Positions 3,924 to 15,148 of a stretch of DNA of 48,074 nt are shown here, in pieces. The notes under the pieces were generated by a model. The model had not been told where the DNA came from and made no database searches. It worked only from the letters and a program-made list of their open reading frames with translations. Location: positions 1 through 48,074 of the forward strand of contig JAODBJ010000323.1 of NCBI GenBank assembly GCA_025463905.1, written 5' to 3'. The translations under genes were made by a program, and so were the position numbers. Position 1 is the first letter of the stretch. Every line of letters starts with the position of its first letter. This DNA comes from Actinomycetes bacterium (lineage in GTDB: Bacteria; Actinomycetota; Acidimicrobiia; IMCC26256; PALSA-610).

Positions 3924-4478
3924 CTACGCCGACTTATGCAGCGCGGCGAGGTCGGCGAAGGCCACGCCGCCGCGCTCGTAGACGGCGAACTCGTCGAGGC
4001 CGCGCGGACATGGTCCGGCGACGCAGCGGCCGTCGAGCGCCCAGGTCGCACCCCCGCAGGGGTCGACGAATCTCACCTCGCCTCGCCTCGACGCGTCGAC
4101 GAAGGCCTGGCCGCGGAAGGGGACGACCCGGCATCCGGGACGGGTGCTGTGCGCCCAGAGCGCGTGGACCTGACCCGACGTGCGCACGATGAACAACGCC
4201 ACCTGTGAGTAGTGGCTGCCGTCGAGCACGACGTCGGTTTGGATGGTCGCTTGGGCGTAGGTGCCCTCGGCCAGGCTGCGCGCGTCGATGCGAACGGCGG
4301 TAGGAAGATGCGCGTTCGTACCCTGATTGCGGAACGCGCCCACGAATGCGAGCACGATGATGACGGCGACGAACGCGGCGAGAACCGCAAGCAGCCGCAG
4401 TTGCTTGCGCATCCGCGGTGTCGCGACGCTTGCCCCGCCGCGCTCGCCGGGCTCGCCGCTCCTCAAATCGCGTTCCAT
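3924..4478 (-). CDS. Membrane-anchored Rieske-like domain protein lacking histidine ligands
   Basis: The 184-residue protein has a basic N-terminus, a single membrane segment (about residues 27-48) and a C-terminal domain whose layout copies a Rieske domain: a GCRVVPF strand at C116, a DPCGGATWALDGRCVAGPCP stretch (C141, C152, C157) and a closing strand. A real Rieske centre needs C-x-H and C-x2-H; here the first is C-R-V and the second C-G-G-A, so a Rieske 2Fe-2S cluster seems impossible. The four cysteines, predicted to lie outside the membrane, could form disulfides instead. It overlaps the lepA stop (TGATG; GTG 4481 is an alternative start). Function unknown. Confidence 0.72.
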   Translation of the reverse strand: MERDLRSGEPGERGGASVATPRMRKQLRLLAVLAAFVAVIIVLAFVGAFRNQGTNAHLPTAVRIDARSLAEGTYAQATIQTDVVLDGSHYSQVALFIVRTSGQVHALWAHSTRPGCRVVPFRGQAFVDASRRGEVRFVDPCGGATWALDGRCVAGPCPRGLDEFAVYERGGVAFADLAALHKSA

Positions 4479-14033: not shown

Positions 14034-14139
14034 CGCGCGGACGTTCGTAGTTGTCGTACCCGCCGCGTACGCTGCGAACGTGTGTTCGACATGCGAAGCA
14101 TTCGAAGCGCGGGTGCGCGCTGGTAGCGTGGCATCCCCT

Positions 14140-14213
14140 GGGGGCGTAGCTCAGCTGGTAGAGCGCCTGCATGGCATGCAGGAGGTTCGTGGGTTCGAGT
14201 CCCATCGCCTCCA
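14140..14213 (+). tRNA. tRNA-Ala (anticodon GGC)
   Basis: The 74-base cloverleaf is complete: acceptor stem GGGGGCG pairs with CGCCTCC and contains the G3-U70 wobble that identifies tRNA-Ala; the anticodon arm CCTGC-ATGGCAT-GCAGG gives anticodon GGC (reads GCC); the T arm is GTGGG-TTCGAGT-CCCAT. The discriminator base is A and CCA is not encoded (CCC follows). Homing-type endonuclease genes begin within about 15 bases of its 3' end, with no intron in the tRNA itself. Confidence 0.98.
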
Positions 14214-14226
14214 CCCAGTCAACGCG

Positions 14227-14712
14227 TTGAAAACACTCACGAATTGCGTCGGGTACACGCTCGGCGGATTCGTTGCGGGCGAAGGTTGTTACTGCATCAC
14301 ACGGCAGTCGCGACCGTTTGCCGACGGCACACCGCGGCACCGTTGGGTATTCCAAGTCAGGGTTGCGGATCGCGATCGGCACTTGCTGGCTGCATTGCGC
14401 GAGTTCCTCGGCGTCGGATCTATCACGGATGGGCCTGCGCACCGCGCACATTGGCAGCCGACGTCGACGTATACGGTGAATTCGCAACGAGCGCACCGGC
14501 AACGCGTGATCCCGTTCTCACATCGCTACCTCCTTCAGGGCGCCAAGCGACGCCAGTTCGAGGCGTGGCGCGCAGCGTTGGAAGCGCACCGATCCCAACA
14601 CCCGAGCCGTCTCGGCCTGGGACCCTCACCGTGCTCGGTTGACGGCTGTAAGGCACCGGTACGCGGTCAGGGACTGTGTCGATCGCACTATTACCGTGCA
14701 ACCGGCTACTGA
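14227..14712 (+). CDS. LAGLIDADG-type endonuclease, first of a tandem pair
   Basis: The roughly 161-residue protein opens with a single LAGLIDADG-like helix, GYTLGGFVAGEGCYCI, where the GEG glutamate would be the metal-binding acid, and ends with C-x4-C-x9-C-x2-H (CSVDGCKAPVRGQGLCRSHY), a probable zinc-binding tail. Single-motif LAGLIDADG enzymes work as dimers. The start is uncertain: the frame runs open through the tRNA, TTG 14227 is the first start codon after it, and an in-frame ATG (14176) lies in the anticodon region. No Shine-Dalgarno precedes the TTG, so it may be co-transcribed with the tRNA. The second copy overlaps by 17 bases. Likely mobile DNA. Confidence 0.8.
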   Translation: MKTLTNCVGYTLGGFVAGEGCYCITRQSRPFADGTPRHRWVFQVRVADRDRHLLAALREFLGVGSITDGPAHRAHWQPTSTYTVNSQRAHRQRVIPFSHRYLLQGAKRRQFEAWRAALEAHRSQHPSRLGLGPSPCSVDGCKAPVRGQGLCRSHYYRATGY

Positions 14713-15148
14713 AGCCTCGGCGGAGTCCGCGTTCGTCGCTGGCTTCGTCGCCGCCGAGGGCGCGTTCATCGCGTCCGGGCGACCTCCCGTGTTTTCGTTC
14801 GTCGTCGGCCTGGGGGCTACGGATGCTGATACTGCGGAGTTGTTGCACGGGTTCTTTGGGGTTGGGTACGTGCGGTGGTTCGCGCGGCGGAAGGCGCATT
14901 ACGACGATGAGGTTCGCTGGACGGTGCGGGCACTGGCAGACCAGGTGAACGTGATCGTGCCGTTCATGGATGCGCACCTGCCGGTGTCGCACAAGCGGGC
15001 GCAGTACCTCGTGTGGCGCGACGCGCTGTTCGAACACTGGGAGCACGGAGCCCGGCGGCAGAGAACCTGCACGCTCGACGGTTGCGATGCGCCGCACCGA
15101 GCCCACGGCCTCTGCCGCCATCACCTGTATGTCCACCACCGCACATAG
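14696..15148 (+). CDS. LAGLIDADG-type endonuclease, second of a tandem pair
   Basis: The 150-residue protein repeats the architecture of its upstream neighbour: one LAGLIDADG-like helix (AFVAGFVAAEGAFIASG) and a C-terminal C-x4-C-x9-C-x2-H tail (CTLDGCDAPHRAHGLCRHHL). The two are clearly diverged paralogues. GTG 14696 is chosen because it begins just before the LAGLIDADG helix and inside the end of the previous gene, allowing translational coupling. Codon use contains more A/T third positions (gct, act, gat, ttt, ggg tac) than the surrounding core genes, a sign of recent transfer. The pair could form a heterodimer, each supplying one catalytic motif; this is inference. Confidence 0.8.
   Translation: MQPATEASAESAFVAGFVAAEGAFIASGRPPVFSFVVGLGATDADTAELLHGFFGVGYVRWFARRKAHYDDEVRWTVRALADQVNVIVPFMDAHLPVSHKRAQYLVWRDALFEHWEHGARRQRTCTLDGCDAPHRAHGLCRHHLYVHHRT

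Follow-up and report, generated by a model that had tools for sequence, protein, structure and literature searches.

The locus examined here raises the question of where the first of two overlapping endonuclease genes found directly behind a tRNA-Ala(GGC) gene begins, and how this gene is related to the tRNA gene preceding it. The DNA analysed (hereafter the window) is a stretch of 48,074 nucleotides from an Actinomycetes bacterium, and the first-pass annotation had placed the start of the feature at 14140. It actually begins 5' of the tRNA with GTG 14080, from which the frame of the first gene (M-C-S-T-C...) crosses the entire tRNA gene. The features of the locus, where the two genes are referred to as A and B, are listed in Table 1.

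Table 1. Features of the tRNA-Ala(GGC) locus and the associated endonuclease genes in the window
Feature	Position	Strand	Description or basis
Putative promoter of A	14051..14073	+	TTGTCG 14051-14056, TACGCT 14068-14073
ORF A, 210 aa	14080..14712	+	GTG start 5' of tRNA, through tRNA-Ala(GGC), into LAGLIDADG endonuclease A
Upstream module (codons 1-20 of A)	14080..14139	+	Codon-like conservation; in occupied loci, missing from nearly all empty ones
Putative native promoter of the tRNA, within ORF A	14101..14129	+	TTCGAA 14101-14106, TAGCGT 14124-14129, 17-nt spacing
tRNA-Ala(GGC)	14140..14213	+	Single copy, 74 nt to discriminator base; ARAGORN and Rfam; nested in sense in ORF A
Catalytic Glu codon of A, E68 of ORF A (AGEG)	14281..14283	+	Alignment of A proteins
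Zinc-type tail of A, C-x4-C-x9-C-x2-H	14632..14688	+	Sequence
ORF B, LAGLIDADG endonuclease B	14696..15148	+	GTG start within last codons of A
Catalytic Glu codon of B, E21 (AAEG)	14756..14758	+	Invariant in B alignment

The two LAGLIDADG endonucleases and their surroundings

The earlier description of the pair as two diverged, single-motif LAGLIDADG_1 proteins overlapping by 17 bases is borne out, as both match PF00961 (A 4.5e-9, B 5.4e-5), with bit scores (A 37.6, B 24.5, full ORF A 36.7) above the curated cut-off of 23.1, and the two proteins are 30% identical. In the window each carries one motif (viz. AGEG in A and AAEG in B) on a LAGLIDADG helix with the catalytic acid, together with an alpha-beta core, and the C-x4-C-x9-C-x2-H tail described previously is present on both. 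The catalytic acids, which were to be checked in alignments, are kept: GEG is found in 11 of the 12 intact A sequences and GDG in that of L095, while B has AEG or GEG. The B protein at one other locus (L125:4446-4844) is without the zinc-type tail and ends in a short unrelated C-terminus instead. In the AlphaFold model of A the LAGLIDADG core has a pLDDT of about 90, and residues 15-45, which are largely encoded by the tRNA gene, fall below 50; the mean pLDDT for B is 86. The PDB fold matches of these models are I-OnuI, I-SmaMI and I-AniI. The tRNA-coded segment of A, as modelled, looks like a disordered linker. The GTG start of B is embedded in the final codons of A in most elements, an arrangement which suggests that A and B are translationally coupled, and from their sequences a heterodimer of A and B acting on an asymmetric site is plausible.

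The tRNA gene is complete and uninterrupted, and the Rfam scan of the window revealed no ribozyme family. The pair is therefore free-standing, as had been proposed, i.e. it lies outside any intron or intein with its host gene intact, and it is not encoded within a group I intron. A divergent leuS gene is located upstream and an alpha-L-rhamnosidase-like gene downstream, with A and B alone between the tRNA and the latter. As no integrase gene is present there and no repeat of the tRNA 3' end was found at the far end of the element, an integrase-type attachment site or tRNA island is ruled out.

Association of the elements with tRNA-Ala(GGC)

Searches covering 149 relatives, the order, samples from its class and phylum and another order, together with one alignment-based scan of genome contigs, led to the identification of 16 distinct elements, and 38 loci lacking the genes were compared with them. 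A scan of genome contigs with a single sequence gave no match; the alignment-based scan did find elements. The elements are those of the window (L001), G031 (L059), G055 (L060/L061), G024 (L062), G021 (L063), G016 (L064), G023 (L065), G049 (L066), G259 (L095), L122, G857 (L123), G842 (L125), L128, L130, G777 (L174) and G788 (L177), of which A is intact in 12 and the other four (L065, L066, L130 and L177) are decayed. Their hosts appear to be MAGs assigned to Acidimicrobiales, Acidimicrobiia or Actinomycetota, except for one labelled Bifidobacterium, which is probably a mislabelled bin. All 16 elements are located directly behind tRNA-Ala(GGC), and due to this the linkage cannot be ascribed to chance; the search for further pairs, suggested by the first-pass annotation, thus yielded no close-relative pair away from tRNAs. 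Among the weak relatives of the A profile (E > 1e-15) that were scanned, none adjoins a tRNA. Other tandem pairs of LAGLIDADG_1 type, distantly related to A, occur at L101 (G188), L016/L027 (G030), L118 (G570) and L119 (G482), and a scan covering those of G188 and G030 found no tRNA nearby. Searches for a phage or viral source gave only distant LAGLIDADG matches. The tRNAs of the elements have perfect acceptor stems, and in 7 of 7 occupied genomes tested only one match to the GGC-tRNA-Ala pattern was found per genome; they are therefore presumably functional.

The reading frame of A through the tRNA gene

In the elements with intact A (12 of 12), A has an upstream start, viz. an RTG codon located 60-75 bases 5' of the tRNA and in frame through it. 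From this codon the occupied loci share a 5' block of the form [M/V]-C-S-x-C-x-x-[F/Y]-E-x-R. Within this block, in the elements compared, the start codon switches only between ATG and GTG, the codons for Cys2 and Cys5 show only silent, third-base differences, and variation is greatest at third positions. An RTG at positions -58 to -76, followed by a frame that meets no stop in the tRNA or in the next 45 nt, is present in 14 of the 16 occupied loci vs 2 of the 38 empty ones, and an RTG-Cys start in 14 of 16 vs 3 of 38 (Fisher 2e-8). The tRNAs of different elements are 73, 74 or 75 nt long, but the distance from the start to the tRNA, the tRNA length and the linker behind it together give 0 mod 3 in 14 of 14 elements with an intact start. 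Four different residue combinations of these three lengths are found, all of them preserving the frame of A, and the permutation of linkers among the 12 intact elements gives P = 0.0015 with phylogeny ignored. In the congeners G031 and G016 the tRNA is even read in different frames, with the lengths compensating, and a disordered tRNA-coded linker fits this tolerance of frame changes. The pattern was initially seen in 13 elements; of those fetched later, G777 conforms to it, although its second Cys is lost, and in G788 the start codon is lost and A contains a frameshift. The host genomes are apparently all MAGs, in which single frameshifts could be assembly errors; however, such errors would break a common frame pattern and not create it.

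If the pair were an ordinary homing endonuclease gene behind a tRNA, then A would start 3' of the tRNA (e.g. at TTG 14227) or use a non-canonical start, and the absence of stops across the tRNA would be a coincidence arising from GC-rich DNA and from tRNA frames that are open by nature. Two of the three tRNA frames are indeed stop-free, and the linkers of the window, L060, L095, L123, L128 and L130 contain a TTG, ATG or GTG. However, in 6 of the 12 elements with intact A, ATG, GTG and TTG are all lacking between the tRNA and the conserved LGGxxAGEG helix, and the upstream in-frame start of every intact A, the rarity of such an open frame at empty loci and the compensation of frame over three tRNA lengths also speak against such a gene. 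We therefore regard this explanation as quite improbable. Two other possibilities are ruled out. Excision of the tRNA in the manner of an intron, with joining of its flanks, would break the frame with tRNAs of 73, 74 and 75 nt, and an ATG in the anticodon region could not serve as the start of A, as L059 and L174 have it in another frame and L123 and L125 do not have it. As judged from these sequences, the frame of A runs unbroken from the upstream RTG across all of the tRNA gene to the endonuclease part, and this continuity is conserved.

Occupied and empty sites

The empty site that had been sought in close relatives was found in G052, which belongs to the same genus as the occupied G024. 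In comparison with the latter, about 75 bp upstream and about 930 bp downstream of the tRNA are missing in G052, which is without both modules, whereas the neighbouring genes are conserved. Occupied and empty alleles at an orthologous site are also represented by G021 and G020. An insertion at the 3' boundary of the tRNA alone, as initially supposed, is not supported, because a second conserved module lies 5' of the tRNA and the frame of A encloses the tRNA gene. Further, the sequences 3' of the empty tRNAs show no conservation among the empty loci, and due to this a simple target at the tRNA 3' boundary is not established.

The upstream M-C-x-x-C module could alternatively be a separate leader peptide, or a regulator of the tRNA or leuS, and not a part of A. 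It overlaps the tRNA promoter region, and G020 (L158), G032 (L068) and G019 (L161) retain it just 5' of tRNA-Ala(GGC) although A and B are missing there. However, the module is absent from 35 of the 38 empty loci, no stop codon separates it from A and the two stay in frame, and this possibility is accordingly considered very unlikely. In terms of a module belonging to A, the solo copies in these three genomes are probable relics of lost elements.

The codon usage and descent of the genes also differ from what was thought earlier. Atypical codon use had been attributed to the second gene, but it is A that is atypical (GC3 of 0.66, vs 0.80 for B and 0.87 for leuS and lepA). The transfer suggested on that basis is not indicated by the trees of A, B and LepA, which are largely unresolved and in which no horizontal transfer is evident. 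A evolves several-fold faster than LepA, and old vertical descent of A with many losses, instead of transfer, is possible. One could then ask whether A and B, rather than forming a homing element, have been domesticated and are inherited vertically as a pair of DNA-binding or nuclease proteins serving the host (regulating tRNA-Ala or leuS, for example). The purifying selection on both genes (dN/dS of ~0.2-0.4, with dN well under dS), which is also among the evidence for the reading favoured below, and the orthologous lepA-leuS-tRNA neighbourhood in many hosts, with transfer unproven, would be in accordance with this. However, the distribution of the pair is very patchy (it occurs in 1 of 14 genomes in the family of the window), the catalytic acids are retained, and decayed copies and solo relics exist; hence we consider domestication unlikely. 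For a homing element, the decayed copies, the solo relics and the empty site within the same genus, as seen in these sequences, fit a cycle of gain, decay and loss.

Putative promoters and expression of A

The TACGCT hexamer of the putative promoter of A ends 6 nt before the start codon of A in the window. In most elements a TAnnnT-like hexamer is similarly found ~6-7 nt before this start, after a TGTC(A/G) block, and the position and sequence of the TTGTCG block are kept in most of them. However, the spacing of the blocks is unlike that of canonical -35 and -10 elements, and a consensus promoter scan found nothing, so the promoter of A is only putative. Inside ORF A, the GGTAnnnT hexamer of the putative native tRNA promoter is common to occupied and empty loci. 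In mycobacteria, leaderless initiation follows a rule of ATG or GTG starts (PMC4633059); the A genes of the elements start with ATG or GTG only and they match this rule. From these sequence features, A is probably translated from its own leaderless mRNA. At two loci, G259 (L095, about 1490-1520) and L128 (about 3945-3980), strong terminator-like perfect hairpins are located directly 3' of the tRNA, inside the translated linker of A, and they perhaps attenuate transcripts from the tRNA promoter.

Proposed mechanism and comparison with known systems

The interpretation that we favour, and hold to be likely on the basis of the sequence comparisons, is that of a free-standing LAGLIDADG homing element at tRNA-Ala(GGC), probably heterodimeric, whose first ORF encloses the single-copy tRNA gene of its host and has its own, probably leaderless, mRNA. 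Its modules would flank the tRNA, with a short putative promoter and the ~20 initial codons of A upstream and the LAGLIDADG part of A together with B downstream. Transcription from the putative upstream promoter would produce the leaderless mRNA of A, and ribosomes crossing the tRNA sequence would give rise to a floppy linker of ~25 residues in protein A, with re-initiation at the overlapping GTG leading to B. The A and B heterodimer would then cut element-free tRNA-Ala(GGC) alleles, and repair of the cut would copy both flanking modules together. The transcript of A, or one from the internal tRNA promoter, would be processed into tRNA, and competition between this processing and endonuclease synthesis may keep the endonuclease low. 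With somewhat less assurance, though still on balance, we suggest that the endonuclease coding sequence of this homing element encloses the single-copy, presumably essential tRNA gene that is its target: one RNA would either become tRNA or be translated through it, element and tRNA would be hard to separate, and a single break in an empty allele would lead to copying of the modules on both sides.

The homing endonucleases I-OnuI, I-SmaMI and I-AniI of the LAGLIDADG_1 (PF00961) type, which are the best PDB matches by both sequence and structure, resemble A and B in their fold, motif and catalytic Glu. However, A and B are single-motif halves from two overlapping genes with zinc-type tails, and their element has no intron or intein and contains the host tRNA within an ORF. 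Some ORFs in organellar introns are fused in frame to the upstream exon, and the endonuclease ORF of the element similarly incorporates host sequence lying 5' of it in order to be translated; in the organellar cases this sequence is a protein exon, whereas in the element a functional tRNA gene takes that place and the upstream start is the element's own. Bacterial tRNA genes may contain group I introns (PMC3984707), and in these as well a tRNA gene hosts an endonuclease-linked element, but the tRNA in the present case is uninterrupted and no ribozyme was found. Integrase-type islands likewise occupy tRNA 3' ends and leave the tRNA intact, but the element has no integrase and no displaced copy of the tRNA 3' end, and its second module lies upstream of the tRNA. 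Literature searches, within which subscription papers mostly did not fall, found no comparable tRNA-in-ORF arrangement.

Significance

The arrangement is missed by gene finders. Pipelines that forbid overlap between a CDS and a tRNA would truncate or drop such genes, and similar cases may therefore be hidden. If the proposed interpretation is correct, we know of no earlier conserved case in which a protein-coding frame contains, in sense, a whole and functional bacterial tRNA gene, nor of an earlier selfish gene that is built around such a gene. The locus would further provide a natural system for asking whether a tRNA fold can be translated by ribosomes, and how such translation competes with the processing of the tRNA.
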